Source: a virus
Strand: one strand, 5' to 3'
Virus record (IMG/VR): IMGVR_UViG_3300025897_000054
Coordinates: 1-29,033 of that record
DNA length: 29,033 bases
In this document: one piece after another, positions 165 through 27,158 of the stretch
Numbering within the stretch: the first letter of the stretch is position 1
Layout of the letters: each line of letters starts with the position of its first letter
Made by a program: the position numbers and the translations under genes
The notes under the pieces: generated by a model
Databases searched by the model: none
Told to the model about the DNA's origin: nothing
What the model saw: the letters and a program-made list of their open reading frames with translations, nothing else

Positions 165-1022
165 TTATAATTTATCAACCAATTTATCTATTACGAACCT
201 ATCCGTCAACCCAGTCACTTCACTAATTATATCTAATAAACCAATCGAAGAACTAAATTTTCTAGCACCAGTAGATGGACCACTTTGATTAACTAGAGGG
301 TTATAACCCTTATCCTCAATCTGATCAAAAAGAGTACTACTGAATGAAGTTTTTTTCATATCTTTATCTCTAAAATTTAAAAATTCCACATCTCTAACCT
401 TCATATTATTATAATCTAACTTTCCACTAAACTTAATATAAAAAGGTGGTTTTGATATACTACCAGGAAATAACTCTGACGTTTCTACAAACGTTCTCAT
501 TTTCATAGTTAAGTCATTAAAAGACTTTAATGCATCATTCATAGACTCTAAGTTTATTTCGTATGGTAATTGTATGTAAAAAGTTATCTGATCATCATCC
601 CAAGCAACTACTTTTTTAACTTTTAAATCCCCTAGTGTCGGACTATTAATGTCAGTCCAGTAGTAATAACAAACACCATTAGTAGCGTTAAAATTATTAC
701 GAACCCCACTATTATTAAGTAGGTTTTTATTTTTAGAGTATTTATACACCCATTTCATATTTGTTTTTTGACTACAAATATCTAAAGTAGTTACTTTTTC
801 GTCTACATCATTTGGATTAGTAACAGTGTATCCTGACGCAATTAAAAATTCCATAGCCTCATCTGTATCTATTTCATTACCAGACGCAGTAAATTCTGAA
901 GAATCTATTTTACCATCACCACTGGTATCGGGATTTGTTGCCTCATTAACCAAATTACCAAATAATCTATCTTCAGTAAAAAGGGATTTTATTCTTTTTA
1001 TTTCCTCATTTAAATTTTTCAT
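165..1022 (-). CDS. EF-hand-loop protein with shared capsid-targeting-like N-terminus
   Basis: This is a 285-aa protein with no signal peptide or membrane segment. Residues 4-25 (LNEEIKRIKSLFTEDRLFGN) are almost identical to the N-terminus of the 445-aa protein at 4767-6104, although the rest is unrelated, so the leader is a modular element. Residues 32-43 (DTSGDGKIDSSE) form a textbook EF-hand or dockerin-type calcium loop, with acidic or polar side chains at positions 1, 3, 5, 9 and 12 and glycine at 6. One clear loop is visible; a second acidic stretch (GNEIDTDEA) follows it. The remainder is mixed alpha/beta and I do not recognise it. It is the third gene of a leftward series after the 445-aa and 1214-aa genes. 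I infer a virion-internal or virion-associated protein; calcium binding is predicted only from the loop. Confidence 0.8.
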   Translation of the reverse strand: MKNLNEEIKRIKSLFTEDRLFGNLVNEATNPDTSGDGKIDSSEFTASGNEIDTDEAMEFLIASGYTVTNPNDVDEKVTTLDICSQKTNMKWVYKYSKNKNLLNNSGVRNNFNATNGVCYYYWTDINSPTLGDLKVKKVVAWDDDQITFYIQLPYEINLESMNDALKSFNDLTMKMRTFVETSELFPGSISKPPFYIKFSGKLDYNNMKVRDVEFLNFRDKDMKKTSFSSTLFDQIEDKGYNPLVNQSGPSTGARKFSSSIGLLDIISEVTGLTDRFVIDKLVDKL

Positions 1023-1036
1023 AATTACTACCTTTC

Positions 1037-1107
1037 CTAATAAATATCTACTACATCAAATATATCCATATTAATGTTATTTTTTTTACCCATTCTATAT
1101 TTTCTTC
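1037..1107 (-). repeat. Degenerate duplicate of the 3' end of the 1214-aa gene
   Basis: Just after the stop of the 1214-aa gene, the minus strand repeats that gene's last 60-70 bases in diverged form. The gene end reads DWIKTNNIDMDQFDIVY and then stop. The downstream copy reads EWVKK, then, after a one-base shift in a run of eight A, NNINMDIFDVVDIY and stop. Part of the copy is open from an internal ATG (MGKKNNINMDIFDVVDIY, 18 codons), but I see no sign that it is a functional gene. It looks like the remnant of a tandem duplication or of a lost paralogous gene. Confidence 0.65.
1040..1047 (-). promoter_or_regulatory. Putative late-promoter motif before the 285-aa gene
   Basis: On the minus strand this reads GATATTTATTAG, a variant of the ATATTTAT(A/T) motif found before other transcription units in this window. 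It ends 17 bases before the ATG. It also overlaps the end of the duplicated gene tail, so this copy is less certain than the others. Confidence 0.35.
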
Positions 1108-1108
1108 A

Positions 1109-4100
1109 TTAGTATACTATATCAAATTGATCCATATCAATATTATTTGTTTTTATCCAATCTTTAGTTGCTTCATCAGGTGGGTTCTTCTCACTCTCAC
1201 TTTTAATTTGTTTTATAACATTATCTTCTTTAGTATAACTCTCTAAATAATCAATCTCTGAATCATACATTTTTTGTAAAAAGGATTTAACCTCATCAAA
1301 ACCTAATTTTTCATCTTCTTTTTCCTCTGTTCTTTTTACTATAAGTTCTAACCTAGCCTTAAAATTATTTAAAGGTTCACCGAATAAAGAATTAACACCA
1401 TTAACAATAAAATCTTCAATATTCCCACTACTAATATCAATTTTATATTTCAATAATAACGGAGATATTCTATTTTTTAAATAGTTAGATATTTCAGTGG
1501 TTACTGTTGACCAATTTTCAAAATATCCCATCCCTCTTTGTATAGATTTAGACATGTCATCTTCAGGGTTTTTATCGGTACTTACACCCAACCATTTTTT
1601 TAATGGTACACCTGTTGCATCTTCAAATGATTGGATACCACTAAGAATTAGTTTAGCGACTGGTTCAGGATAAAATTGTGTTAATGCGAATAGTGTGCTT
1701 TGGAATAAGAAATCTGTTATTGCCCCTTTAGATAAATCTATTATAGGTTTAATTTTATATATCTTAATAATATCATTAAATGTTTTACCTTCATTTATTA
1801 ATTTAAGTACGTTATTTGAAACTTTAACGTCTTTAGATGCCAATACCATTAACTGATTTAAATCTCCAACTTTACTATAAGGAACATCATCCAATGCCGC
1901 CACTAACTTTTGGTAATCAGAGTTCTTAAGTATATTTAAAGTTTGAGTATACATTTCTTGCATTTTAGATAGTTGTGAACCACTTAAATCTTTAAAACTC
2001 TCTTGAAATGCTTCCGCAACTGCCTTACTCTTTCCCTCCTCAGACATAGACTTCCAAACAGAAGAACTATACTTTCCCTCTGCATTTTTTATTATTTTTG
2101 AAAACGTTTTTAAATCACCTGATTTTTGTATTCCCTTTAAAATTTTATAAGATTTACCAACACTTTTAAATATAACTGGCATAAAACTAAAAGCAGCATT
2201 CAATTTCCAACCATTATTTTTAGGGTTGTTAGGGTCAGTTATACCTTCATATGTATATCCTAACCCATTAATAGTATCTGCCGCAATCATTAACCTACCA
2301 CCACTAATTATACACCCAACGGCACCTGTATAGACACACCCAATTAGTGAAAGTGCTATCGACGCAATATCTACCCAACAGTGCCAATCTGATTTACATT
2401 CCTTCGCCCATTCTTTAGCTTTTGTAGAAAATGGTCTTGTATCTATTACCCCTGCGTTGCCCCACCCTTCTTCTGCGTTGGTTGTACTTAATTGGATATC
2501 TCCCCCAGCTAAAGGGTTTAACAGAAAAAATGTGTTAGGGTGTTTTTGTAAACCTTGAGGGTTACTATGTTTCATATTTACACAACCACAACCTAAGATA
2601 TAATCTTTGTTACCATATTCATCCGAACTAGGTGGGTAATATAACCAATTTCCCCCTCCTTCATAACGACAAAAATCAGACCATTTTTGTCCAATGAATT
2701 TTGTAGGTCCCTGAAAAGAAGTTACAAATCTTGACCAAGATGTTGACCCACCAGAATTAATCCATTGTTCACAAGCGCCTTTATAATATTCTTTCTTTTG
2801 ACTTAAAAACCTTTTGTTCCATTGATCAACAAATTCTAATAGGTTTAACAAACCGTTTAAAGTTTTTTCAGAATCAGATTGATTCTTATTATAGTGTTGT
2901 TGTATTAAATTCAAAGAATCTTTAGCGCAATCACCATTCTCAACCGCTATATAAGTATAATTTAATGCAGTTTTTAAATCACTTTCTGTATAATCACCAC
3001 TTAAATTTACATTTGTTAGACAACCATTTTCTTCTAAAAATTTTATTGTCCAAATTCTAGACATTATAGTATTTGGATCATAAATATAAACTTTTTCATA
3101 TATATCCCCAATAAGTTTTATAATATATGAAGGGTTAAAAATAGTAGTGGCATTATTTTCTAAAAAAGTTTCAAAAGTCCCAAAATTATAAATATCTTTA
3201 TTGTTATCGTAAATATCTTTAAATTTATAGGTATCTAAAAGTTTTTGATCCATATTAATTACCTGACCATTCCATTTAAATGTACCTTTAACACTTTTCC
3301 AATGGTTAAGACATTTATTATAGTCATTTATATAACTATTTAAATTAATTGTCGCCAAATTATCAGTTCTGGGATTCTTAACATCTCCACCATTAATATC
3401 ATTAAAAGGTAAATACAAAGAATTACCAACATCAACCTTTGATAAGGTATTCTGATCACTATATAAGGAGTTTTTTTGTTTTTCCTTTTCCCTTTCTTTT
3501 TCCCTGTCTTCATCCCTTTCTTTTTCTTTCACCCCAATTTCTTTATGGTATTCATACTCTTGTTCATAAAATGTATCGGGTACATATGACCAAAAAACAG
3601 GTGTATTAGTATCATCATCAAATCGTTTATAATTATGTTCAATTAAAGGATAAGGACTTTCAACAAACGAATACATCATCATCTGTTGAGATATTGTGTC
3701 ATTAACTATCTCATATTCACCTTGATCGTTTAAGTATTCATATGAACTAACAGGAGGAACGTAAACTGATCCACCAATTGTAGTTACCCAGTACATTTTT
3801 TTATATCCTGCCTTTTCAGGTGCACTTTTAAAACTTTTTTCCACCAACCGTACCATCGATTGAACAGTCAATTGTTCCCCCATCGATTTCGAATAACTTG
3901 TAACCCATTCACTAGTAGACCATCCACCCCTATTTCTATATTTATTTTTATCTGTCGGTTCAAAATACCAATATTCATCTGTAACTTGAATATAATCACC
4001 ATTTTCATCTTCTACAGAATTAATATCTTCTTCGATATTCCAACTATACCCATCCACAGGTATATAAAAATACTTTTCATATTCAGGAAATAACCCACTA

Positions 4101-4753
4101 TTTTTTAAATATTCACTATATAGTAAGTACCATGCAGACATAAAATATTTATTGTCTATCGGACCGACTTTACTAAATTTTTCAGAATACCCTAATTTTT
4201 TAAAAAGATTGTTAACTTTTTTTAATCTTTCATCATTTTTATAAACCCATTTTCTAAATTGTTGACCATCAGAATTTGTTTTAATATGCTTATTTAAATA
4301 TACGTTACTTATATCTAATCTTTTTTGTTCTAACCAATTAACTCCATCCTTCCAAGAATCCCATATTTTATTAAAAATACCTTTATCGGTTTTATTCTCA
4401 TTTATAATTTCAGATAAAACTTTTACCATCTTAACACCAAAAATCTTACCTGTTTTAGAACCTAAATCGTAACCATCAGATTTTAATTTATCATATAACC
4501 CCTCTATAGTTTTAATATTATTAAAATCACCGTAATAATATTTGGCAAACGCTTCCGCACTTAAATCTCCAAAATCACCATCATCATTTCTAATAGATTT
4601 ACCTTTTTCTAATCTATATGCGGGTAAATAACCATTTTTTATTAAATACTTTTGTATGTCTATTGCATTAGGATTTACATTATTATTAGTGTTTTGTTCA
4701 TTTAAAAAAACACGTTTATACTGAGATTCCGATATAACAATTTTTTTACCCAC
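1109..4753 (-). CDS. Large virion-associated protein, PG-binding-like N-terminus, hydrophobic C-terminal half
   Basis: This 1214-aa protein starts at GTG (4751-4753), the only non-ATG start I see; no better ATG lies upstream before the previous stop, 13 bases away. Residues 1-20 (ending ISESQYKRVFLNE) match the shared N-terminal element and end in L-N-E. Residues about 29-75 look like a divergent peptidoglycan-binding domain (IQKYLIKNGYL, then DGDFGDLSAEAFAKYYYG), perhaps with a second weak copy to about residue 110. A highly charged Lys/Glu/Arg segment lies mid-protein (KEKERDEDREKEREKEKQ). Hydrophobic stretches occur near 785-825 (SIALSLIGCVYTGAVGCIIS), 850-875 and 1008-1046. The region just before 785 is rich in Cys, Trp and Gly. 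The size, hydrophobic patches and tail-gene context suggest a virion protein delivered during infection. The family is not recognised. Confidence 0.75.
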   Translation of the reverse strand: MGKKIVISESQYKRVFLNEQNTNNNVNPNAIDIQKYLIKNGYLPAYRLEKGKSIRNDDGDFGDLSAEAFAKYYYGDFNNIKTIEGLYDKLKSDGYDLGSKTGKIFGVKMVKVLSEIINENKTDKGIFNKIWDSWKDGVNWLEQKRLDISNVYLNKHIKTNSDGQQFRKWVYKNDERLKKVNNLFKKLGYSEKFSKVGPIDNKYFMSAWYLLYSEYLKNSGLFPEYEKYFYIPVDGYSWNIEEDINSVEDENGDYIQVTDEYWYFEPTDKNKYRNRGGWSTSEWVTSYSKSMGEQLTVQSMVRLVEKSFKSAPEKAGYKKMYWVTTIGGSVYVPPVSSYEYLNDQGEYEIVNDTISQQMMMYSFVESPYPLIEHNYKRFDDDTNTPVFWSYVPDTFYEQEYEYHKEIGVKEKERDEDREKEREKEKQKNSLYSDQNTLSKVDVGNSLYLPFNDINGGDVKNPRTDNLATINLNSYINDYNKCLNHWKSVKGTFKWNGQVINMDQKLLDTYKFKDIYDNNKDIYNFGTFETFLENNATTIFNPSYIIKLIGDIYEKVYIYDPNTIMSRIWTIKFLEENGCLTNVNLSGDYTESDLKTALNYTYIAVENGDCAKDSLNLIQQHYNKNQSDSEKTLNGLLNLLEFVDQWNKRFLSQKKEYYKGACEQWINSGGSTSWSRFVTSFQGPTKFIGQKWSDFCRYEGGGNWLYYPPSSDEYGNKDYILGCGCVNMKHSNPQGLQKHPNTFFLLNPLAGGDIQLSTTNAEEGWGNAGVIDTRPFSTKAKEWAKECKSDWHCWVDIASIALSLIGCVYTGAVGCIISGGRLMIAADTINGLGYTYEGITDPNNPKNNGWKLNAAFSFMPVIFKSVGKSYKILKGIQKSGDLKTFSKIIKNAEGKYSSSVWKSMSEEGKSKAVAEAFQESFKDLSGSQLSKMQEMYTQTLNILKNSDYQKLVAALDDVPYSKVGDLNQLMVLASKDVKVSNNVLKLINEGKTFNDIIKIYKIKPIIDLSKGAITDFLFQSTLFALTQFYPEPVAKLILSGIQSFEDATGVPLKKWLGVSTDKNPEDDMSKSIQRGMGYFENWSTVTTEISNYLKNRISPLLLKYKIDISSGNIEDFIVNGVNSLFGEPLNNFKARLELIVKRTEEKEDEKLGFDEVKSFLQKMYDSEIDYLESYTKEDNVIKQIKSESEKNPPDEATKDWIKTNNIDMDQFDIVY

Positions 4754-4766
4754 TACGTTAGTCTAA

Positions 4767-6104
4767 TTACTTTTTTCTTATTGCGAAAAAACCATTGTTT
4801 TTACCCGTTTTTTTATGTAATGTTACAACTTTATAAGTACTAGGATCTTTTTGTAATGTCTTTAAAAAATATTCCTTAAAATCATTATTAATTTGCATTC
4901 TACCACTTTTCCTATTTTTAGATGCGATAGTATAACCCTTTCTACCATTAAACTTATACTTACCAGGCCCAACCATCTTTAACTTCGCAACTGTTAATCC
5001 ACCACTATCTTTTACTTCATATGTTTCACCCTCAACGGAAGATTCCAATTCAGGAATTTCTCTATTTAATAAATCATAAGTTTGTTCCATTTCTTCCATC
5101 CCAATACCAATACCTAATTTACCAAATCTATTTTTAAATGTACTAACACACCAATCAAGACCTTTTAATTCCTCATCAGTTAAATTCATCTCCGCATTAC
5201 CTATTTTAGTAGTTTGTTTATAAATTTCTTTCATCCCTTTTTTACAGGCTTTAACGTTATCATTAATTTCACCCTTATCTCTTTTAACACTCGCTAAAAC
5301 ACTTTTAACGGTATTTTTTCTTTTTCCTTTTTGGTAAAACTCTGTACCTTGTCTATTTGTTCCCGCTTTTTTAGGTCCGTCATCATCCTCACCCTTCTGA
5401 TCATCATATGTCCCAGTTTCTGAGTCTTTCCCACTATCAGATCCTTTGGTAACTTTAGTGGAAGAAGTTTTACCGTCTTCACCTTTGGTAACTGTAGTTT
5501 CTGTACCGTCTTCACCTTTGGTAACTTTAGTGGAAGAAGTTTTACCGTCATCTTTATCTTCCTTGTTTTTTTTCTCTAACTGACTTTTTAGATCTCCTTT
5601 CTGAGCAAATGGGTTATCTAGTGTAGCATCTCCGTCACCTGTAGACTTTTTGTTTCCGTCTGTAGGATTTGGCTTTATACCAATGCTTTTCGACAATGAC
5701 TCAACGTCAACGGTTTTGTTAGCAATTACTTTGTTTATTGTTTTAATGGCGTCCATCATACCATGTGTAGTGATGGGTCCACTTTCATTAACTAATCCAG
5801 CTTTTTTATTAAAAGCCTCTAAAGTCTTAGGTCCTGCAATACCGTCAGGTGTTAAATTATTTTCTTTTTGAAATTTCTCTAATGCTTTTTTTGTATTCGG
5901 ACCAAATTTACCATCGACTGGTTTTACACCTAGAAGGGTTTGTAGTGCTTTTACACCTTCTCCTTTAGACCCATTTTTTAATGAACCTTCTGTTATATAT
6001 TTTTCTCCTTCAGTACCAACTAGATTACCGAATAACCTTTCTTCCGTAAACAAAGACTTCATTCTTTTTATTTCTTCATTCAAAGTATTAAATCTTTTTT
6101 TCAT
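4767..6104 (-). CDS. Peptidoglycan-binding protein with capsid-targeting-like leader
   Basis: This is a 445-aa protein. Residues 8-29 (LNEEIKRMKSLFTEERLFGN) nearly duplicate the leader of the 285-aa gene. Residues about 42-100 form a PG_binding_1 domain (LKNGSKGEGVKALQTLLG, then DGKFGPNTKKALEKFQ and a second DGIAGPKTLEAF), which in other proteins binds cell-wall peptidoglycan. A KYITEGS string at 36-41 is an I-x-E-G site of the type cut by T4-like prohead proteases. Residues 187-221 are tandem KTSSTKVTKGEDG repeats in a long disordered, charged linker. The C-terminal 150 residues appear folded and unfamiliar (WCVSTFKNRFGKLGIGIG). No catalytic lysozyme or peptidase motif is evident, so a lytic role is unproven. 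It sits between the tube gene and the 1214-aa gene, which has a similar leader-plus-PG-binding layout. Confidence 0.85.
   Translation of the reverse strand: MKKRFNTLNEEIKRMKSLFTEERLFGNLVGTEGEKYITEGSLKNGSKGEGVKALQTLLGVKPVDGKFGPNTKKALEKFQKENNLTPDGIAGPKTLEAFNKKAGLVNESGPITTHGMMDAIKTINKVIANKTVDVESLSKSIGIKPNPTDGNKKSTGDGDATLDNPFAQKGDLKSQLEKKNKEDKDDGKTSSTKVTKGEDGTETTVTKGEDGKTSSTKVTKGSDSGKDSETGTYDDQKGEDDDGPKKAGTNRQGTEFYQKGKRKNTVKSVLASVKRDKGEINDNVKACKKGMKEIYKQTTKIGNAEMNLTDEELKGLDWCVSTFKNRFGKLGIGIGMEEMEQTYDLLNREIPELESSVEGETYEVKDSGGLTVAKLKMVGPGKYKFNGRKGYTIASKNRKSGRMQINNDFKEYFLKTLQKDPSTYKVVTLHKKTGKNNGFFAIRKK
5443..5549 (-). repeat. In-gene direct repeat coding a disordered linker
   Basis: A 35-base unit occurs identically at 5443-5477 and 5515-5549 with a 72-base period, and a diverged copy (coding TETTVTKGEDG) lies between them. 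Together they encode the KTSSTKVTKGEDG repeats of the 445-aa protein. The reading frame is kept throughout, so this is a protein linker repeat. It could expand or contract by slippage. Confidence 0.8.
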
Positions 6105-6140
6105 AATATCTTTTTTTTAATTTTTTTATTGTGTTTATTA

Positions 6141-6149
6141 TATAAATAT
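6141..6149 (-). promoter_or_regulatory. Putative late promoter of the 445-aa gene
   Basis: The minus strand reads ATATTTATATAATA here, a full match to the recurring motif followed by a TATAAT-like extension. It ends 36 bases before the ATG at 6104. The leader between is A-rich (AATTAAAAAAAAGA) and is nearly the same as the leader of the tail tube gene. Confidence 0.55.
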
Positions 6150-6160
6150 AAACAAAAACC

Positions 6161-6193
6161 AAAAAATCCCCACCAAACTAATGATAAGGATTT
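6161..6193 (-). terminator. Weak terminator candidate after the tail tube gene
   Basis: On the minus strand AAATCC (6188-6193) can pair with GGATTT (6164-6169) across an 18-base loop, and the run continues into six T. It falls between the tube gene stop and the promoter motif of the next gene. The stem is short and the loop large, so this is tentative. Confidence 0.35.
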
Positions 6194-6220
6194 ATTTATA
6201 AAATTAAATATTTTAATTTT

Positions 6221-6709
6221 TTAGAATACGTTAATCGCTCTATCAAAACGAAGTGTACACTGTATTTCTGCTAAATCAGAAGAATTATAATCTAACCCAC
6301 TAAAATCTGCGTCATTTAATTGTGTACCTTGTAGTATCCATTTCTGAACAACAACACCAGTTGGGTCTAACATTTCTAATTCTACGTCTTTTTTATATCC
6401 TGCAGCGTAACCTTGTCTACCTGTTACTGATTCTGAGTGTAAACGAACCCATTCCATTAACGCTTGTGTTGCAGAAGGCCCAATAGGGTCTCTAAATGTT
6501 ACGGAAATAGATTCCCACTTAAATCTACCAATAACAAAAGTAGACGTATTTAAAAATGGAATCTCTACCTCATCACTCGTATATTTAGGTCTTGATGTTG
6601 TAGAAACCCACCATTCTTGAATTCCTAATTCGTCTGGGAATCTCAAAATAAACCTATTCTTTCTTAACGGTTCGTAAGGAACAGGCATTCTCATTAATAA
6701 ATCTGCCAT
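6221..6709 (-). CDS. gp19: Tail tube protein, T4 gp19-like
   Basis: This 162-aa protein is nearly the same length as T4 gp19 (163 aa), the subunit that polymerises into the inner tube of the contractile tail. Recognisable features are the N-terminal PYEPLRKNRFILRFP, the central FKWESISVTFRDPIGPS followed by ALMEWVRLHSES, and the C-terminal DLAEIQCTLRFDRAINVF. These match the order expected for this beta-barrel family: FxLxF strand, W-x-x-I-x-V-x-F-x-D-P strand and a closing TLxFDxA strand. It is flanked by its own promoter motif and a terminator-like hairpin, which suits a single, highly expressed structural gene. It lies about 2 kb past the sheath gene; in T4 the two are adjacent. Confidence 0.93.
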   Translation of the reverse strand: MADLLMRMPVPYEPLRKNRFILRFPDELGIQEWWVSTTSRPKYTSDEVEIPFLNTSTFVIGRFKWESISVTFRDPIGPSATQALMEWVRLHSESVTGRQGYAAGYKKDVELEMLDPTGVVVQKWILQGTQLNDADFSGLDYNSSDLAEIQCTLRFDRAINVF

Positions 6710-6755
6710 TTTTTCTTTTTTTTAATTTTTTATTATAGTTATTCTTTGTATATTA

Positions 6756-6764
6756 TATAAATAT
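6756..6764 (-). promoter_or_regulatory. Putative late promoter of the tail tube gene
   Basis: The minus strand reads AATATTTATATAATA, a full match to the recurring motif. It ends 46 bases before the tube ATG. An A8/T7 inverted repeat (6774-6791) lies just upstream and could terminate the preceding 102-aa gene, though an A/T-only hairpin is weak evidence. Confidence 0.55.
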
Positions 6765-6792
6765 TCAGTTTTCAAAAAAAACTATTTTTTTA

Positions 6793-7101
6793 TTATAATT
6801 TTATATGTTTTAATATTCTAGTGACTGTTTTACCTATTTCATCCATCCCACTACTTAACCAATCAACTTGTTCTTGCAATGATTGATCCGTAAACTTCTC
6901 TCCATCCATATTACCATGTACTTCTTTTTCTAATAGTGATAGTCTTTTATCTATAGATAAAATATCTTTTTCATCTTTTTCTAATCTTTCTTTGTCTAAA
7001 TCCCATTCTACAGTTTCTTCTTTAAGTAGACTATTTTTCACAATTCGTTTTAAATCCGACTCCGTTAGATTTATAACTTCCCCATTCTTTTTAATTTTCA
7101 T
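6793..7101 (-). CDS. Small coiled-coil protein with shared N-terminal element
   Basis: This is a 102-aa protein whose first 25 residues (MKIKKNGEVINLTESDLK and onward) are almost the same as those of the 108-aa protein at 8329-8655. The element ends in SLLKEE, an L-K-E string. After it the sequence is strongly helical and charged (DLDKERLEKDEKDILSIDKR), with heptad-like Leu/Ile spacing through ILKHIKL at the C-terminus, consistent with a coiled coil. I do not recognise the family. It has its own promoter motif 16 bases upstream and is followed by the tail tube gene. I infer a small virion or scaffold-associated protein. Confidence 0.75.
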   Translation of the reverse strand: MKIKKNGEVINLTESDLKRIVKNSLLKEETVEWDLDKERLEKDEKDILSIDKRLSLLEKEVHGNMDGEKFTDQSLQEQVDWLSSGMDEIGKTVTRILKHIKL

Positions 7102-7116
7102 AATTATATATTTTTA

Positions 7117-7125
7117 TATAAATAT
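7117..7125 (-). promoter_or_regulatory. Putative late promoter of the 102-aa gene
   Basis: The minus strand reads AATATTTATATAAAA, a full match to the recurring motif, ending 16 bases before the ATG at 7101. It lies in the 42-base gap after the HAD gene. Confidence 0.5.
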
Positions 7126-7143
7126 TTAGTTTTTTATTAAAAA

Positions 7144-7995
7144 TTACTTTTTAATTATTATTCTTTTCTTTTTTGTGTCTTTTGGATCTGAAGTATCATA
7201 AACTGTAAAAGTAATTTCGGGGTGTAGTCGTTTTAATTCATTTCTAATTAAATCTTCTATAACTTCTACATTACCTTCATCATCATCACTAAACCCAACA
7301 CTAATACCCTCAAAGTCTTTGTCATCTTTAATCTTAGATATCTGACTCACAATTCTATCTACAAAACTCTTAAACGCAATTTTTTTACCTTCTTCTGGAT
7401 TTGTCCCCACACTATCTAAACCAAACTTTTGTGCGAATTCTTCTGAAGACACAGGATGATAATCTTGTAGATTTAAATATTCGTCTATTGTTAACCCATT
7501 AAGGTTCTTTTCCATCTCTTTTTGTTCACCCCAACTCATATCTCTAATTATTAACTTTATACCTTCTTTTATTGCTTGTGGGGGATTAGATCTTGCGGTA
7601 ATAATAGAAAAGTCACTACCACTTATTAAAGCTTCTTTAAACTTATTAAAACTAGGTCCGTAACTTCTATAACTTAATGCCCTTTTTGTATCTTCAATAA
7701 ATGCACCATAATCTCTAAAATCTTTAAACGCACTTAGTATATCATTGTTTGGATATCTAAAGTCTTTTCCTAATTTATGTCTAACACTTCTAAATTGTTC
7801 TGTTGATACTGATACAGGTACCCAAATTTTATTACCTTCACTACCTAAATCCGCAATATCATTACTATTAACATTATAATCTAAATGTATTCTTGTGGGC
7901 ATAATCAATATATTATCATCCCAATCAAAAGAATACGCTTTTTTCTTAAATTCCTTTAATAATTTATATTGTGACTCTGTAAGTTTAATATTCAT
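7144..7995 (-). CDS. HAD-type phosphohydrolase with shared N-terminal element
   Basis: This is a 283-aa protein. Residues 1-14 (MNIKLTESQYKLLKE) carry the shared leader, ending in L-K-E, and a haloacid-dehalogenase-like fold starts at once. Motif I is SFDWDDN (nucleophile Asp24, acid/base Asp26), motif II is SIITARS (Thr133), a basic residue near Lys205 could supply motif III, and motif IV is GFSDDDEGN (Asp237-Asp238). HAD enzymes hydrolyse phosphate esters; the substrate here is unknown. The T-A-R of motif II and the D-D-E-x-N of motif IV are typical of phage polynucleotide phosphatase-like and 5'-nucleotidase-like HADs, but I cannot choose between them. The start is four bases after the previous stop, so it is co-transcribed with the 85-aa gene. 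Confidence 0.78.
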   Translation of the reverse strand: MNIKLTESQYKLLKEFKKKAYSFDWDDNILIMPTRIHLDYNVNSNDIADLGSEGNKIWVPVSVSTEQFRSVRHKLGKDFRYPNNDILSAFKDFRDYGAFIEDTKRALSYRSYGPSFNKFKEALISGSDFSIITARSNPPQAIKEGIKLIIRDMSWGEQKEMEKNLNGLTIDEYLNLQDYHPVSSEEFAQKFGLDSVGTNPEEGKKIAFKSFVDRIVSQISKIKDDKDFEGISVGFSDDDEGNVEVIEDLIRNELKRLHPEITFTVYDTSDPKDTKKKRIIIKK

Positions 7996-7999
7996 CTAA

Positions 8000-8257
8000 T
8001 TATAATAATTTTTTTAGTAAGTTTCTTTCTATATCTGTTATCCACTCAACGGATAATGGTAATTGACAAAACATAAAAGGATCTAATGGTAAACCATCAC
8101 TTTTTAAATTTTCTTTGTCTTTTAAAAAATTGTTTTTAGATACATCGGTAAGTTCTCCCCAACGACTACAAAATTCACTTAATAATTTTAAATCTGATTC
8201 CTTATTTTCTTTTAAAATAAGTTTTTTAAATTGTTTTTCTGTAATAATTAATTTCAT
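8000..8257 (-). CDS. 85-aa protein with shared N-terminal element
   Basis: The start MKLIITEKQFKKLILKE is a clear version of the shared leader, ending in L-K-E. The remainder is a compact, probably helical domain with two cysteines and a WGELTDVSKNNFLKD stretch that I do not recognise. The gene begins five bases after a promoter motif and is followed four bases later by the HAD gene, so the two form a small operon. The overlapping plus-strand frame at 8115-8318 is a shadow. I can say only that it belongs to the leader-bearing set. Confidence 0.7.
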   Translation of the reverse strand: MKLIITEKQFKKLILKENKESDLKLLSEFCSRWGELTDVSKNNFLKDKENLKSDGLPLDPFMFCQLPLSVEWITDIERNLLKKLL

Positions 8258-8261
8258 ATAT

Positions 8262-8270
8262 TATAAATAT
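8262..8270 (-). promoter_or_regulatory. Putative late promoter of the 85-aa/HAD operon
   Basis: The minus strand reads CAATATTTATAATAT, a full match to the recurring motif, only five bases before the ATG. If it works as a -10 element, the transcript would be almost leaderless. Confidence 0.5.
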
Positions 8271-8281
8271 TGTCCGATCAT

Positions 8282-8308
8282 AAAAAAACCCCACATATGT
8301 GAGGGGTT
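8282..8308 (-). terminator. Rho-independent terminator after the 108-aa gene
   Basis: The minus strand forms a hairpin with arms AACCCC and GGGGTT, extended by ACAT/ATGT with a two-base bulge, followed by a run of seven T. It lies between the 108-aa gene and the promoter motif of the next operon, so it separates two transcription units. Confidence 0.75.
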
Positions 8309-8328
8309 AATTTATTAGATTTATAATA

Positions 8329-8655
8329 TTATGGTAATTTTTCATCCATAGGGCCACTACCACCAATCTTCTTCATAACACATTTTCCGATAGGCTCAAT
8401 TTTAGAAATAATCATCTTAGCGTCGCTTGCATCCATTTCCGTTCCACATTCTAACGCTTTAGTATAATCTTTTTCTGTTATCATTTTTATACATGATTCA
8501 GGTAAATTTGTAATATCTTTTAGTGTAGTATTTTCCATAATACAATCAATAACAATCTGTTTAGGGTCTTTATTTTCATTTAAATATCTTTTTGCAATTC
8601 TACGTAAATCACTTTCTGTTAATCTAATTACTTTTCCGTTTTTTTTAATTTTCAT
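8329..8655 (-). CDS. 108-aa protein with shared N-terminal element
   Basis: Residues 1-25 (MKIKKNGKVIRLTESDLR and onward, to YLNEN) match the 102-aa protein at 6793-7101 almost residue for residue and end in L-N-E. The rest differs: it is helical with four cysteines (38, 55, 70, 92) and a C-terminal GGSGPMDEKLP tail. I do not recognise it. It stands alone between two hairpins, with its own promoter motif 23 bases upstream, directly after the tail sheath gene. The cysteine spacing could allow two disulfides in a saposin-like helical bundle, but that is speculation. Confidence 0.72.
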   Translation of the reverse strand: MKIKKNGKVIRLTESDLRRIAKRYLNENKDPKQIVIDCIMENTTLKDITNLPESCIKMITEKDYTKALECGTEMDASDAKMIISKIEPIGKCVMKKIGGSGPMDEKLP

Positions 8656-8716: not shown

Positions 8717-11569
8717 TTAAATATCGTCAAAAGATGCGCCAGTGTTAGTAATATTGAACTCTATTGAAATGAATTCTAACGACCTTGTTGGTTTAATAAA
8801 GATTCTACCATTAAGTTCGTTTCTATCAATAGATTCTGGTGTGTCATCCAATACAACTCTAAAGTCTGTTAAACCTCTCTCTTTTCTAATGTTATCCAGA
8901 ATTGGATTAACTAAACTTAAGAACTGATTTCTTACAACATCATCATTTTGTTCGAATAACAATCTGATTGACACCGCTGAAATAAGTTTTCTCGCTTGTA
9001 ACAACAATCTTCTAACATTGATTCTGTTAAGTGCGGTTTCTTTAACTTGTAGTGTTTTATTACCGAAGATTACAACTCCTACATCTGAGAATGTCGCCAT
9101 TGGGTTAATTCTACCTTCGTATAAGTCATCTCTATCATCTAATTTTAGTTTCACTCTCGCTTTGATTGCGTTTGTTGTACCCCTATTTAAACCAGCCGCT
9201 GCGAACCAAGGGAACGCCACATTATCGGTAAGGGCGATGTTTCTCATAACTTCTACTGTAGGTGGTAACCATACATATCTGTTATTTTCTGTATCATTCA
9301 TCTGTAACCACGGCCAGTATGTGGCAGAATAATTAGAATCAATACCAGAATCTTCTATGGTGTCCACTGCCTCACTTGGTGATAATACGATACCACCGTC
9401 ACTAGTATCAGGAGTAGTAATCACATAAAGCGAATCCGCCCTATCAACTTCCACCATATCAACCGCATTCTCAACCAAACTAATATTATCTCTTAAGTCA
9501 ATTCCTGGTGTTGCAAATACGTTAATATTAACTGCTTCAGGATTGTTATATGTGTAAATACCATCTAAATAAGCGTAATAATCGGAATTAATCCCACTAT
9601 CACCTTCAGATGTAACAAAAGAAGAAAACGTCCCATTTGTTTCTCCAATAGAACCTCTAGAACCATTTATAGTATATCTATCGTCATTAGTTCTTTGTAG
9701 TCTATAAACGTCCCATCCATCCCATCCACCGAATGGTGTAAACGTAAATTTCCTAGCCGCTAATTTTCTATATGGTCCAGTTTGTATGCTAGTCTCTGTT
9801 GTAAATGCAGACACCCCAACTTGTAAAGAAGGTGAATATGTGTTACTACCTAAGTCTACATTTGCACCATTAGCATTAACGTCTAAATGAAAACCATCTG
9901 TTCTCCCACTATAAACACCATTATTAACTTCGTTTTTACCTTTGTAGTCAAAGAAATCTTGATCTACACCGATTTCACTATTTAAACCTAAGTATGTTTT
10001 TCTTAATTTTGACGTATTAAAATCTGTATATTGTGTTTTATACTCAATTTTTGGTGGAGAAGAAGTTCTAGAACCAATGTACGTTCTATTTAATACTCCC
10101 TCAAAACCTGCAGGAAAATGGTTACCTAAATCTGGATCTTCTAAATAAGAAGATTGTGTCTCACTATCGTAAAACTCAACCATAATATATTTACTACGTA
10201 ACGGAAACTCACCATCGTTTGTCCCAATTTTCCTACCAATAAATCCTGTTGCGTTAATATCTAAACTAAGATTAGAAAATTTCTCTACAACAGATGGGTT
10301 AGCATCAGTATCATTAAAATTTCTTATTAGTAAATCAAATGTCTTATCACCTGGTTTAATATTAATAATTGAAAATTTAACGTCTTCATTTGCTGCATTA
10401 CCATCAGATATTGTAATAAATCTAAATAGTCTTTGTAATGTTGCACCTGAACCAGTACCTTTTAGTTCTGAGAGAACCCAAGGTGATACCGCAGACTTCC
10501 ATTGTTCTTGATAATTATCTAAATCATTTGCATCTGTAGTTTGGATAGTATTAAAGTCAACGTCTAATCCTCTAACTTGATTCTTAGAGATTAAATCAAC
10601 TAATACATTTTCATAAATTTCTTCTACCCATAATTCAGTGTCTTTATCTTGTGCTGAACTACCAAATACTCTAGGGATATAATTCTTTTTAGTTCTATCT
10701 AATGAAACGTCATAACTAAATGCGTTACCATTCGTTGCGGTTCCACCTATAGTAAACGATGCCAATGCATTATTTACAATATTTGTAGTATTACTCATTG
10801 TTGCTGAAGTACCAGTAACTTCGAAAACTAACTCTTCATTTGCGTTATATGTACCTCTCGATCTCAATGTTGCGATAACACTACCATCTATGTCTGTTAA
10901 ACAAGTTGCGGTATAACTTACAACCGTACCACTTGTAGTACCAGTTACAAAACTTCCACTTGTTCCTGTTGCAGTTACTTCCATATCGAAAGTTGCACCA
11001 CTGAAGTCACATTCTGTTTTAACGTATATAGGGTCGGTTTGTGAAATAGTTTGTCCTGTATCTAATAACCCTAATGTTGATAATGTGAATTGTCCATCAT
11101 TATATAATGCCTCTAAATTGTTGTTGTTCCAATCCAACGCGACTGGTACCCCAGTAGTTTCTGCAGTATATGTTAATAACGTATCGGTAACTGTAGATGC
11201 ACTACCTACAGTGTCGGGATCTTCTGAGGAGTCCAATGTAATTGACCACGCATCGCCTGCCTTATAACCCGACAACCCTAAAACTCTACTTACATACAGT
11301 TGGTTGGTTTGTGTTAAAAACGATTTGGCGATATAATTTAATTCGTATTTTTGGAATCCCGTCCCTTTAAATTTTTCAGAGTTAAGACCACCAAAATAAC
11401 TAATAAATTCATTGTAGTCAGAGATAAATACGGGCTCAAACGCTGGACCTTTAGGGGTTTCACCTAATAATCCTAACGTTGTAACACCGACTTGTCTCGT
11501 TACGAATGTTAAGTCCTTTTCTGATGTAAATACACCTGGACTTACAAAAATTCTGTCTGTTGATGCCAT
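8717..11569 (-). CDS. gp18: Tail sheath protein, T4 gp18-like, enlarged
   Basis: This 950-aa protein would form the contractile sheath around the tail tube. The N-terminus (VSPGVFTSEKDLTFVTRQVG, then LLGETPKGPAFEPVFI) is the usual sheath start. The C-terminal third has the conserved sheath core: WLPPTVEVMRNIALTDNV, FPWFAAAGLNRG, KTLQVKETALNRINVRRLL and the closing strand SLEFISIEFNITNTGASF, which would interlock with neighbouring subunits. T4 gp18 is 659 aa, so about 290 residues are extra. Much of the excess appears to be Thr/Ser/Gly-rich beta sequence around residues 125-290, likely surface domains inserted into the N-terminal half. It has its own promoter motif 42 bases upstream and a strong hairpin downstream. 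Confidence 0.95.
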   Translation of the reverse strand: MASTDRIFVSPGVFTSEKDLTFVTRQVGVTTLGLLGETPKGPAFEPVFISDYNEFISYFGGLNSEKFKGTGFQKYELNYIAKSFLTQTNQLYVSRVLGLSGYKAGDAWSITLDSSEDPDTVGSASTVTDTLLTYTAETTGVPVALDWNNNNLEALYNDGQFTLSTLGLLDTGQTISQTDPIYVKTECDFSGATFDMEVTATGTSGSFVTGTTSGTVVSYTATCLTDIDGSVIATLRSRGTYNANEELVFEVTGTSATMSNTTNIVNNALASFTIGGTATNGNAFSYDVSLDRTKKNYIPRVFGSSAQDKDTELWVEEIYENVLVDLISKNQVRGLDVDFNTIQTTDANDLDNYQEQWKSAVSPWVLSELKGTGSGATLQRLFRFITISDGNAANEDVKFSIINIKPGDKTFDLLIRNFNDTDANPSVVEKFSNLSLDINATGFIGRKIGTNDGEFPLRSKYIMVEFYDSETQSSYLEDPDLGNHFPAGFEGVLNRTYIGSRTSSPPKIEYKTQYTDFNTSKLRKTYLGLNSEIGVDQDFFDYKGKNEVNNGVYSGRTDGFHLDVNANGANVDLGSNTYSPSLQVGVSAFTTETSIQTGPYRKLAARKFTFTPFGGWDGWDVYRLQRTNDDRYTINGSRGSIGETNGTFSSFVTSEGDSGINSDYYAYLDGIYTYNNPEAVNINVFATPGIDLRDNISLVENAVDMVEVDRADSLYVITTPDTSDGGIVLSPSEAVDTIEDSGIDSNYSATYWPWLQMNDTENNRYVWLPPTVEVMRNIALTDNVAFPWFAAAGLNRGTTNAIKARVKLKLDDRDDLYEGRINPMATFSDVGVVIFGNKTLQVKETALNRINVRRLLLQARKLISAVSIRLLFEQNDDVVRNQFLSLVNPILDNIRKERGLTDFRVVLDDTPESIDRNELNGRIFIKPTRSLEFISIEFNITNTGASFDDI

Positions 11570-11714: not shown

Positions 11715-11873
11715 ATGAAAAGGGATAAAAACTTAAAAATTACACCACAAACACATAAACTATTAAAAGAATATTGTGAAAATAATGGTTTAAAAATGTT
11801 CGCATTTGTGGAAAAACTAATTAGAGAAACTTGTAAACCTAAGACTGATATCTATGGTGATGAGGTTAATTAA
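11715..11873 (+). CDS. Small ribbon-helix-helix DNA-binding protein
   Basis: This is a 52-residue frame from an ATG at 11715 to a TAA at 11871-11873, with no track longer than itself in other frames except the convergent SET gene end. The sequence LKITPQTHKLLKEYCENNGL followed by KMFAFVEKLIRETCK fits the Arc/MetJ ribbon-helix-helix pattern: a short basic beta strand (KNLKITP) for DNA contact, helix A (THKLLKEYCENNG) and helix B (KMFAFVEKLIRE). Such proteins act as dimeric repressors. It lies on the opposite strand to the structural genes around it, overlaps the SET gene end by eight bases, and follows a set of TCATACT repeats that could be its own operator. Its targets are unknown. Confidence 0.7.
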   Translation: MKRDKNLKITPQTHKLLKEYCENNGLKMFAFVEKLIRETCKPKTDIYGDEVN

Positions 11874-12270
11874 GAGTAAATAAATCCGTATTAGCTAAGA
11901 CCCTATTAAATTCATAATTTAAAAATAGTTCTTCATTTTTATCTATATCTCTTAATGTGTAGAATACTAATATTTTATTTTCATTATCCCACTTATAAAT
12001 TATATTTGGGTCGTTAGATGAATTAAATAACGCCCCATAACCAAAAGGAATAACATAAGGAAATGTACCATTATCTTCTACTCTAATAGTATTTATTCTT
12101 ATTGGTTTTAAATGGTGTGTATAGGAAGCGTCATCTTCTGTCATATATAAACAATGACATTCTTCTAATATTTCTCCCTTAGATATTTTTTCTTTTGTGA
12201 ATATACCCCAACCATGTACGTCACTTTTTCTAGGTTCAATTGATTTGTTCTTATATAAAACATTTTTCAT
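11866..12270 (-). CDS. SET-domain protein, putative lysine methyltransferase
   Basis: This 134-aa protein is close to a minimal SET domain, the fold of S-adenosylmethionine-dependent protein lysine methyltransferases. Residues 16-35 hold the N-terminal SET motif (SDVHGWGIFTKEKISKGEIL, with the HGWG cofactor loop at 19-22). Residues 79-89 (GALFNSSNDPN) correspond to the RFxNHSCxPN motif, with Ser in place of His. Residues 112-120 (NEELFLNYE) match the GEELxxxY motif, with the expected catalytic Tyr119. No post-SET cysteine cluster is seen. The substrate could be a phage structural protein or a host protein; nothing in the sequence decides. It follows the beta-helix protein gene after a 34-base hairpin and overlaps the RHH gene end. 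Confidence 0.85.
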   Translation of the reverse strand: MKNVLYKNKSIEPRKSDVHGWGIFTKEKISKGEILEECHCLYMTEDDASYTHHLKPIRINTIRVEDNGTFPYVIPFGYGALFNSSNDPNIIYKWDNENKILVFYTLRDIDKNEELFLNYEFNRVLANTDLFTLN

Positions 12271-15519: not shown

Positions 15520-18500
15520 TTACATTTGCCACCATTGTCCTGTTCCTGTACTAACTAATATAACCGCTCCACCATCTGCGGATAATTCAAAGGAAGAAAC
15601 TACTGATGTTGTTATTATGGTATCTGAACCTGCGGCTTGTATGGTTATAGGATTTCTTCTAGAATTAACACCAATATCTTTTACTTCATATCTTTTTGTA
15701 CCACTACTTGTAGAATCGGGTAAGAATAAAGTAGGTTCAACAGAAGAAGTGTCAAAACCAATAACATCATCACTTGTCGTTGCGGAATAAGTTGTTCCTG
15801 TAACTGATACCACACTTAATGACGATGACACATCTATCTTAATTTGATTTGTTGAAGGATTAGATAGTGTTACATTTGTACCACCAGTTAAGAATAAAAC
15901 ATCTGTACCATCGTTTCTTGTGACTGTTGCTTGATTAGAACTAAATGTCGTTCCTGTTACAAATGTATCTGTTACACCAGTGATGTCTACATTAGTGGCA
16001 TCATTTCTTGTTAAAGTAATTGTGTCTGTTGCATCACTATAAGTACCACCTGTAACATAAGTATCCATAGAAGGTGGAAGAGAAACATCAATAACAATTG
16101 TGTCATTATTTAAACTTAATGTTGTGTTAGAACCACCACTTAGGGAATAGAATTCAAAGTCATCAACATTTCTTTGTTTAAATACTCCTTGACCAACACC
16201 TACATTAGAGACTGTATTGTCTTCCGCACCTGTGGATGCAAATATCCAACCACAAATCTTATCTTTTTTGGGTATTGTACTACCTTGTTGATATTGAACA
16301 GGTATTGTAAACCATCCTGTATTATCTACAGTTGAAGCACTTACTGTAAATAAAAGTGCTCTAGTTGCATCATCATTTTGTTGAATGTAAATTACATCAC
16401 CAACATCTAATATGTTTAATAGGTTACTAGCGTCTATACTATTATTAGTTTCATCACTAACATAGACTTCTGTAATCGCACTTGCAACTGTATTATTTAA
16501 TCTAAAATGTCCTGAACCTGGGTCTGAACTAGCAGTAGGTTCTTTAAATTTCCAAGGGAATGATACCGAAGCACCACCTCCACCACCTGAAGTAACATTT
16601 AAAGTTATAGAATTATTACCATTATCTATAAATTGTGCGTTTGTACCACCACTAAGTTGTAATACTTGTTGTGAATCATTTCTTGTTAACTCTAAAACAT
16701 TTGATGTAACGGAAGAACCTGTAACAAATGTATTCGTATCGGGTGTTATACCACTAACTGGACGATATTCTACTTCACCTGTACTACTATTTCTTACTAA
16801 AATATCAGTTGCGGAATTATTAAGTGTTGGTGTGGTTGTTAAGAATGCGGTTTGTGCTGATAATACGCCATCTACAATAGTGTCACTATCTATGTATGTA
16901 TCGTATCCTGCATTACCAACGAAAACTCTATCTTGATTATCTACACCTATTAAAGAAACATTGGCGTCCGCAACCGTCCTACCTTGTAAAAAGAAAGAAT
17001 TATCCCTTATATTAATATGTCCGTTAAATACGTTAATTGCGGAATTAGATGTAACACTAGTTGCGGTTAGTGGACCAAGTGTTGTATCACCTGTAACATC
17101 TAAATCACCATTTATGTCATAATCACCTGTGAGTGTTTTACTATAATCCCAAACAGTAGTTGCGGAGTTATAAACAATTAAATCACCATTTGTTGCTCCA
17201 GTTGTTTGAATATCACTAATATCCCCTAATTTAGTTGATAAATGTCTATCTACAAATATAGAACCGTTAGCTGCTGCATTTAAAATAACACCCATCTCCA
17301 ATACTTGATTGGGAGCACTTGGTTCTACTGAGGTTAATCCTCCTGGTATTGTTGGTGAAACGTATAATACGTCACCATCAGACCAAGATTCACCATATAA
17401 TGAACCTGTGGTATCTATACCTCTAACAACACCAAATTCAGTAACTAAACCATCTTCACCATTTAATATATCTTCTGTTGCAATACCTAAAGTTTTTGCG
17501 AAAGGATATGTACCATCCGCAATCATATATTCACCTAAAATCCTACCCGATGCACCAAATGAGCCAGCGTTCCTAACAACCCTACCGTTTGATATTGTTG
17601 CCCCACTTTGATTTTTAACTATATAATATATTTCTTGTCCAATCTGTTGGGTAACGTTTCCACCACCCATACCTAAATCTAAAGTAGCATCCTCAAAGTT
17701 CCAAGATAACCTACCTTCAGCGGTCTCGCCAGTATAGTTTAAATCAAAATCAATTGTGGTAGCAGTAACCGCATTTAAGTTAGAAGTTCCTGTGACAGTT
17801 ATATCACCATTAACAGTTAAACCTGTCATTGTATTTATTGAGGTGTTTAAATCAACACCATCATTTCTACTAATTGTAAACGTATTTGTATTGTTGTAAG
17901 TGAATCCTGTGACAAATGTATCATTAACATCTATTGTTGATAAATCTAAAGTATATGTCGTACCATCATTTTTAGTAAATGTCGCTAACGCAGTTCCATT
18001 ATCGTATGTAGATCCTGTAGTAAAAGTATCTGTAACACCAGTAATGTCTACTGTAGCCGCATCATTTCTAGTTAAAGTAATTGTATCAGTAGATTCGTTA
18101 TATGTACCACCAGTAACAAATGTATTCATAGAAGATGGTAATGAAACATCTATCAATATATCATTTGTTGCCGTTTCACTTAAGGTGACATTAGAACCAC
18201 CAGATAGACTAAATATATCTACATTATCATTTCTTGTTAGTGTTAGTTGATTGGATGCGAATGTTGTTCCAGTGACAAATGTATTGTTATCTGTAATACC
18301 TGTTAACCCACTACCATCACCAACAAAAGTTCCATTAAACGTACCACCATTAAATGTTGTTGCGGATATACTACCAGATGTACCAATATCAAAAGTAACT
18401 GCACTTAGTACAGTCGCTAAGTCTATTGTATCTGCGGTAGCGACAAATGAGGTACCATCGTTTTGTGAAATAGTAAATGTATTTGAACTTATACTAAAAT

Positions 18501-26556: not shown

Positions 26557-26803
26557 AGTATTTTCAATGAAAGGTTGTCCCCACTGCGACAACTTAAAAA
26601 AACAATTAAGTGAGAACAATATTGATTTTATTGTTTTAGACGTAGATAAACATGAAAAATTGTACGATCAATTTTCTAAAAAAGTAGATAGTGAGTTTCT
26701 ACCCGCAATTATGGTAGGTAAAACCGCATTTCTTCCTGATAGGTCTTTTAATACGATTAATGAAGCGGTAGATTTAATTAAATCTCACCTTCAGGTGCTT
26801 TAG
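26546..26803 (+). CDS. grx: Glutaredoxin
   Basis: This 85-aa protein has the glutaredoxin fold: first strand KVFSMKG, active site CPHC (Cys11, Cys14) at the start of helix 1, DNIDFIVLDVD-like second strand, and the FLPAIMVG segment (Pro53), which supplies the cis-proline loop facing the active site, where many family members have TVP. It ends in a helix (EAVDLIKSHL). In T4-like phages glutaredoxin or thioredoxin-type proteins reduce phage ribonucleotide reductase; no reductase gene is in this window. The start overlaps the SNF2 stop by 11 bases, so translation is coupled. The gene end overlaps the convergent 126-aa gene by 26 bases. Confidence 0.9.
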   Translation: MEVKVFSMKGCPHCDNLKKQLSENNIDFIVLDVDKHEKLYDQFSKKVDSEFLPAIMVGKTAFLPDRSFNTINEAVDLIKSHLQVL

Positions 26804-27158
26804 GTCCGGGACCATTTAAATTAAAATTAACGTTATCCTGTTTTTTACCATCTATCATATCCCCTAAAACATTTATAATGTTATCATATTCAGTATCGTG
26901 TTCTGCTGCAAAACCTTCTTGTCTACCACCATCACTCAACAAAGACATTCGTATACTATTTAAAACCTTTTCCATATTTTTATCATCTACGTTTTCTAAC
27001 GCTGATTCAATATCTCTAAGTGCATCTATTAAATGTTGCATCGCTTTATAGGATAATCCTAACGCAATCTCATCTTGTGTTTCATAAACATCGGTTCCAT
27101 TAAAACCTATTCTATTAGTTTCCTCTTTTAATATTTTTTTAATCACATTTTTCATCAT
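26778..27158 (-). CDS. 126-aa protein with a short L-K-E leader
   Basis: Two ATG codons are adjacent (27153-27158), giving MMKNVIKKILKEETNRIG. This is a short basic amphipathic start ending in ILKEE, similar to the shared leader of the 165-8655 block but lacking the Thr/Ser-Glu part. The body is helical (YKAMQHLIDALRDIESALEN, then KVLNSIRMSLLSDGG), and the tail is Asn/Gly/Pro-rich (NFNLNGPGPKAPEGEI). The family is not recognised. It sits between convergent glutaredoxin and divergent gp13-like genes, with its promoter motif in the shared palindrome at 27162-27181. I infer a small virion or head-internal protein with low certainty. Confidence 0.68.
   Translation of the reverse strand: MMKNVIKKILKEETNRIGFNGTDVYETQDEIALGLSYKAMQHLIDALRDIESALENVDDKNMEKVLNSIRMSLLSDGGRQEGFAAEHDTEYDNIINVLGDMIDGKKQDNVNFNLNGPGPKAPEGEI
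26786..26813. terminator. Paired hairpins in the convergent gene ends
   Basis: CACCT-TC-AGGTG (26786-26797) and GGTCC-G-GGACC (26803-26813) are two perfect 5-bp stems. They lie where the glutaredoxin gene and the minus-strand 126-aa gene overlap. They may terminate both transcripts. No T run follows on either side, so this is uncertain. Confidence 0.35.

Follow-up and report, generated by a model that had tools for sequence, protein, structure and literature searches.

Exchangeable N-terminal leaders on unrelated proteins of T4-like environmental phages: probable tags for loading the phage head

Introduction

Why do eight otherwise unrelated proteins encoded by one phage fragment begin with related short leaders? 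The question is raised by IMG/VR virus record IMGVR_UViG_3300025897_000054, of which positions 1 to 29,033 (29,033 nucleotides, hereafter the window) represent a myovirus fragment with T4-type tail genes, its sheath and tube proteins matching PHROG tail families. In phage T4, a capsid-targeting sequence (CTS) of 10–19 residues targets proteins to the prohead core (PMC9026906, section 10), and the protease gp21 cuts at L/I-X-E (PMC9026906, section 9). A preliminary description of the window had interpreted its leaders as a CTS-like loading system, and this interpretation is supported here by the spread of the leaders, by an S77 protease and a capsid [LI]xE in relatives, and by the near-absence of the leaders from cells. 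At the level of sequence we observe a tag family with [LI]xE as its modular boundary, nearly restricted to phages, whose genes share an upstream motif with structural genes; relatives of the window hold both S77 and the capsid site. We consider it probable that the leaders are cleavable N-terminal loading tags that function like the T4 CTS, taking their proteins into the head for injection.

A leader family on unrelated proteins

Relatives of the window were retrieved with its HAD-like and tail-tube proteins as queries; they include a 71-kb contig (G001) that is near-identical to, and overlaps, the 29-kb window. Ten such contigs (the joined contigs) were read with genes called mechanically, making eleven contigs with the window. 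With the window and G001 left out, regular expressions drawn by eye from some of these same phages matched 50 of 1,517 N-termini, and they matched none of 5,917 internal 60-residue pieces. Three profiles (A, C and D) were then built without the window or G001, with seeds that include orthologues of some window proteins, and were used with calling thresholds of 10, 9 and 9 bits. The best internal control pieces scored 18.2 and then 9.9 bits for type A, 10.9 bits for C and 8.8 bits for D; the 18.2- and 9.9-bit pieces themselves look like internal leaders, one within a fusion and the other either within a fusion or downstream of a wrongly called start. The prediction of further leader-bearing genes held: 107 of 1,590 N-termini were called across the eleven contigs (G005, 18/120; G008, 7/126; G010, 11/117; G019, 8/306; G001, 9/51; G017, 0/107; G002, 5/115; G016, 8/118; G003, 29/343; G020, 4/165; window, 8/22). 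If the window and G001 are set aside, 90 carriers remain, whose bodies blastp sorts into 64 groups, 54 of them single; this may be an overcount, because blastp can overlook relations between short bodies. As in the T4-type CTS, a short N-terminal element is therefore common to otherwise unrelated proteins. Leaders are rich in lysine and arginine (K+R 24%) and measure 11 to 44 residues to P1, with a median of 19. Five near-identical copies of a short leader gene, starting MKNLIRKILKEEFDDF or MKNLIRKILREEFDDF, are scattered over the 108-kb contig G010 (L180–L185).

All eight genes and leaders of the preliminary description were found again, each on the minus strand, and the profiles recover all eight leaders at 15.8 to 44.2 bits, as three related forms rather than one sequence. 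The NEE type opens a 285-residue protein (165–1022; leader MKNLNEEIKRIKSLFTE, 972–1022, profile D, 42.3 bits), for which a cut after E17 is predicted, and a 445-residue protein with PG_binding_1 at residues 51–97 (4767–6104; leader MKKRFNTLNEEIKRMKSLFTE, 6042–6104, profile D, 44.2 bits). Profile A recovers the TESQ-type leader MGKKIVISESQYKRVFLNE (4697–4753, 35.5 bits) of a 1214-residue protein that has a GTG start and no family match (1109–4753), the TESDL-type leader MKIKKNGEVINLTESDLKRIVKNSLLKE (7018–7101, 21.1 bits) of a 102-residue protein (6793–7101), the leader MKLIITEKQFKKLILKE (8207–8257, 20.3 bits) of an 85-residue protein (8000–8257) and the leader MNIKLTESQYKLLKE (7951–7995) of a 283-residue HAD-like protein assigned by its motifs (7144–7995); this last leader, at 15.8 bits, scores below the 18.2-bit internal piece. 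The leader MKIKKNGKVIRLTESDLRRIAKRYLNE (8575–8655) of a 108-residue protein (8329–8655) scores 24.9 bits, and a short-type leader, MMKNVIKKILKE (27123–27158, profile C, 25.0 bits), opens a 126-residue protein (26778–27158).

A further set consisted of 77 loci picked by their capsid protein only, after removal of three near-identical to the joined contigs. At 12 bits, matches came from 42 of the 1,470 N-termini, spread over 28 of the 77 loci, and from none of the 4,756 internal pieces; at 10 bits the figures were 52 N-termini and one internal piece. The peptide MKIKLTESQ occurs in 23 distinct DNA codings, which places conservation and selection at the protein level. An ATG-initiated, back-translated MKIKLTE-x-Q pattern was found in 75 stretches (79 places) among 2.9 million viral contigs, in which a scrambled-order pattern had zero matches; the matches continue into many different sequences, with one (L315, 22 residues) that looks spurious and two cut by locus ends. 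The leader had been expected not to be widespread on cellular proteins, and the same pattern occurred only four times in 84,980 bacterial and archaeal genomes, at most one of these occurrences appearing to be real. Three are an internal methionine, a 12-codon frame and a protein lacking the closing motif that we take to be transposase-like, while the fourth, on a Prochlorococcus single-cell contig, has a phage-leader-like start, is cut off at the locus end and is probably a phage fragment.

As negative controls we took three Bacteroidota phages from outside the T4-like group: crAss001 (100 of 103 kb read), phi14:2 (100 of 100.4 kb) and phiST (the first 50 kb of 79) gave no match at 8 bits among 111, 119 and 81 open reading frames (ORFs), respectively. 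The GenBank phages listed first for the G005 capsid protein were immuto (Flavobacterium), the uncultured LR756508 and Mel-JY01 (Microcystis). In LR756508, a metagenomic huge phage (100 of 484 kb read), 8 of 119 N-termini matched, the best internal piece reaching 6.3 bits; no ORF reached 8 bits in immuto (218 ORFs in 150 of 160 kb) or in Mel-JY01 (208 ORFs in 150 of 190 kb). A comparison of two leader peptides (28 and 27 residues) with GenBank phages returned nothing, the queries probably being too short for this to count as evidence. A generic feature, early K/R plus [LIV][KRTSN]E, separated poorly and was set aside (immuto 16/218, phi14:2 7/119, phiST 4/81, crAss001 1/111, T4 stretches 0/29, internal pieces 128/5,917).

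The closing motif and the capsid cleavage site

The T4 capsid protein gp23 loses a 65-residue propeptide (PMC9026906, section 9), and the cut therefore falls at FLTE|A of the T4 sequence. At this site [LIV]xE is present in all eight sequences aligned (T4, immuto and six contigs). The recognition motif that the preliminary description had adopted from gp21 was borne out on the capsid protein of 80 relatives, which carries E at the gp23 site in 80/80 and L or I at P3 in 79/80, with P2 and P1' variable. Of 106 scored leaders, 78 have L at P3 and 17 have I, a preference partly built in by the seeds. Non-seed leaders hold [LI]xE near the end of the profile in 42 of 48 cases versus 459 of 2,400 matched control windows, an excess that is also partly built in, because the profiles contain the motif. 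The leaders thus end in the gp21 motif L/I-X-E, as T4-type CTSs do, and they belong to a lineage with S77 and a gp23-type capsid bearing the same site, a combination found in relatives and not in the window itself.

Leaders as exchangeable modules

The leader and the body behind it vary separately. Depending on the phage, the 108-residue body stands behind one of three leaders, each closing in L-x-E, and orthologues of the HAD-like protein carry TESQ leaders, MKKNLTE|G or MKLLRKIISEYVEEKILSE|G; some HAD-like genes have the seven-residue start MKKNLTE|GFK, and another a long leader closing in ILSE|GF. The stretch that precedes the HAD-like fold contains [LIVMF]xE, within up to 40 residues, in 49 of its 50 distinct versions, the lone exception being a spurious 41-residue frame. 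That this fold begins soon after the leader, as first described, agrees with an AlphaFold2 model of the window protein, in which residues 1–16 mostly have a pLDDT below 50 and the fold is confident from about residue 18, the leader E being residue 15. The HAD name stays motif-based, because comparison of this model with the PDB gave no match at E 0.001 or better; HAD-superfamily structures stood at ranks 3, 4, 5, 7 and 8. Distant HAD-like relatives (31–37% identity) were seen in the uncultured 634–735-kb genomes LR745206 and LR756501–LR756504, the frame in LR745206 starting MIKKFNQFLEN.

Leaders are also found inside fusions. At six loci (L007, L052, L055–L058) a HELTHV metallopeptidase-like protein, itself opening with a leader-like sequence, continues into the HAD-like protein; in L007 the whole of a TESQ leader is retained internally, and at the other five L-x-E stands at the junction. 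A second fusion, in G016, contains an internal leader whose stand-alone counterpart in G008 is followed by similar sequence. A site kept inside fusions would be expected of a cut site, the alternative being a drifting linker. An AlphaFold2 model of the fused HAD-like protein (917 residues; mean pLDDT 45.5) was discarded and has no bearing on whether the internal leader is a linker.

The S77 protease in relatives

A gp21-like protease had been proposed as the partner of the leaders, and searches of relatives recovered one, PF03420 (S77) scoring over its cut-off in 9 of 20 contigs. The neighbouring head genes are found in six of the eleven contigs (the ten joined ones and the window), and every one of these six encodes S77; the five without it have no terminase, portal or scaffold gene, and one of them starts inside the capsid gene. 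The proteins align with T4 gp21: H85 is invariant, and in seven of eight rows an SSRG segment lines up with that of T4, the eighth row being incomplete; we take the aligned H and S to be catalytic. In four contigs (L261, L290, L299 and L302; G028, G044, G045 and G047), two S77 matches, one full and the other partial, lie some 900 bases from each other in one 632-residue frame; a duplication within the protease gene, or an insertion that preserves its reading frame, would account for them.

Leader-first contigs of at least 40 kb were compared with 17 control contigs chosen by a start that we presume to be epimerase-like. S77 was found in 22/33 versus 4/17 (p 0.007) and a gp23-type capsid gene in 19/33 versus 4/17, a comparison that is approximate, since the 33 contigs count one entry each, exclude G005, keep the spurious L315 and include near-duplicates. 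HK97-type capsid maturation is another protease-dependent route of head maturation. Its capsid family, PF05065, was not found in the 11 S77-less leader-first contigs, a weak negative because these also have no gp23 match and may be headless fragments.

Cargo and gene neighbourhood

When 61 leader proteins were scanned against Pfam (at 0.01) and PHROGs, PG_binding_1 was found in two members, and iron/manganese superoxide dismutase, M23 peptidase, SprT-like, zeta toxin or AAA kinase, Phage_L5_gp82 and DUF4314 in one member each; HExxH was found in four carriers by a motif check. Among the PHROG matches listed (25 of 65 families) are families that bear the names endolysin, peptidase, tail length tape measure and minor head protein. 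The 25 Pfam families of the cargo include none of DNA replication or nucleotide metabolism, bar a weak DNA-alkylation-repair match. In the joined contigs and the window, the homologues of terminase, portal, protease, scaffold, capsid, sheath and tube all begin without a called leader. The superoxide dismutase motif lies in a leader protein of G019 (16211–16870, L186), and a phage head would not usually be expected to carry such a protein.

The genes share a motif, ATATTTAT, within 60 bases upstream in 43/99 leader genes and 80/195 structural-gene homologues, as against 0/67 homologues of a sugar/metabolism block and 152/939 other genes; on the opposite strand it precedes 6/99 leader and 17/195 structural genes. 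In the window it lies within 80 bases upstream of five of the eight leader genes, at 25, 45, 24, 13 and 11 bases from the genes of the 285-, 445-, 102-, 85- and 126-residue proteins, and the remaining three start within 61 bases behind a neighbour. It also precedes the leaderless tail sheath (8717–11569, minus strand) and tail tube (6221–6709, minus strand) genes and some others, with minus-strand examples at 6757, 7118, 8263, 11613 and 27162. It may be a late promoter of this phage group. Between the fibre-like and sheath genes of the window, a 134-residue protein (11866–12270, minus strand) was marked by eye as a SET-domain candidate.

Interpretation and alternatives

If the leaders work as loading tags, the lysine-rich, helix-prone part of the tag would bind the prohead core late in infection and recruit the attached protein before the shell closes. 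The S77 (gp21-type) prohead protease would then cut after the E of the closing [LI]-x-E, as on the capsid protein, and the cargo, freed inside the head, would be injected with the DNA into the next bacterium. We advance more tentatively, as a possible but doubtful extension, a general cargo-loading code, in which exchangeable leader classes (TESQ/TESDL, RKILKE and NEEIxRIKSLF) would load dozens of enzymes and inhibitors, among them superoxide dismutase, peptidases and kinase- or toxin-like, peptidoglycan-active and HAD-like proteins; some would arrive as polyproteins and be cut in the prohead, and the classes would address different parts of the core.

Several points weigh against the loading-tag interpretation. 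Core binding, actual cleavage, virion location and injection are steps that we infer. The profiles miss the T4 CTS itself: IPII and IPIII of T4 start MKTYQEFIAEA, and the T4 stretches, ipII and ipIII included, gave nothing at 8 bits that would relate the leaders to MKTYQEFIAE, the best of 29 ORFs reaching 1.7 bits; our claim is consequently that the leaders work like a CTS and not that they are members of it by sequence. At the capsid site, P4 (L in 78/80) and P2' (T in 75/80) are nearly fixed too, so that P3 and P1 are not distinctive alone, 6 of the 48 non-seed leaders have no [LI]xE near the end, and 19% of control windows contain the motif. Neither the window nor the near-identical G001 holds head genes, and both lack S77; elsewhere S77 accompanies every gp23 gene over cut-off, in all 19 leader and all 4 control contigs, so that the contig comparison places the leaders in T4-like phages and is no tie to the protease itself. 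Mel-JY01, with an annotated prohead protease and a T4-like capsid protein, gives no profile match, nor does G017 (0/107 N-termini), which has S77 and gp23, and the tag set is therefore lineage-specific; the best score in immuto, 7.5 bits, is under threshold, the three phages that are not T4-like reaching at most 3.8. Some leader proteins match PHROGs named for tail tape measure, minor head protein or endolysin. The motif ATATTTAT was chosen from the same data in which it was counted, its comparison groups were hand-picked, and in the window it also precedes a helicase gene.

Three other explanations have to be weighed with these points in mind. Seven window leader genes flank the sheath and tube genes, one of them encoding a peptidoglycan-binding domain, the upstream motif is common to leader and tail genes, and tail length tape measure and endolysin are among the PHROG names matched, all of which would suit a virion assembly tag for proteins of the tail or baseplate lumen instead of the head core, whether or not the same protease cuts it. 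We regard such a tag as improbable, because the closing motif matches the capsid-cleavage site, the T4 analogue acts on head proteins, and another group of leader genes lies directly before the terminase and head genes in G005, those of G003 being scattered along the contig. A localisation or stability signal that stays uncleaved in the infected cell, acting at a membrane, nucleoid or chaperone with [LI]xE as a by-product of helix capping, would draw on the lysine and arginine content of the leaders, which could bind membrane or nucleic acid, and on the indirect nature of the case for cleavage; it is distinctly improbable in our view, as it leaves unexplained the match to the capsid site, the exchange at the motif, its retention in fusions and the near-absence from cells.

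The proteins might also share no more than ancestry, bodies having been joined repeatedly behind one duplicated N-terminus whose leader has no present function. Some cargo genes are indeed recent duplicates, such as the five-member family in G010. However, the 64 body groups among 90 proteins, the 23 codings of one peptide and the different leader types on one body argue for continuing selection on the peptide, and we hold this explanation to be highly improbable.

Comparison with known systems and significance

Like the T4 CTS (IPI, IPII and IPIII) and the Alt propeptide, the leaders are short N-terminal segments on unrelated proteins that close in [LI]-x-E, and as in T4 they belong to a lineage whose protease is of the gp21 type and whose gp23-type capsid protein aligns at the cleavage site. 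Unlike the CTS, they come in at least three related forms, are carried by up to 29 proteins per contig as against the few named for T4, front cargo that includes recognisable enzymes and occur as internal copies in fusions; they are also often longer (11 to 44 residues, median 19, versus 10–19 in the T4 internal proteins described in PMC9026906). The giant phage SPN3US likewise has N-terminal propeptides on head and ejected proteins, substrates of gp245, the phage protease that removes them, but the propeptides given in the part of PMC10052503 consulted are mostly of 111–254 residues, with two short ones (20 and 24), and a common tag of the present kind was not seen there. The system would also differ from HK97, although the failure to find PF05065 in the 11 S77-less leader-first contigs is, as noted, a weak negative. 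Among the literature matches listed (titles and abstract openings, with subscription journals mostly outside), there was no description of the leader family, which does not establish priority.

Proteins injected by phages are usually identified by proteomics, phage by phage. If the leaders are loading tags, the candidate injected proteins of a large environmental group of T4-like and huge phages would become readable from sequence, and such proteins would be good candidates for counter-defence or host take-over. The leaders would also provide new tags for packing proteins into phage heads, and the principle of the T4 CTS would have been expanded, or re-invented, at a far larger scale.

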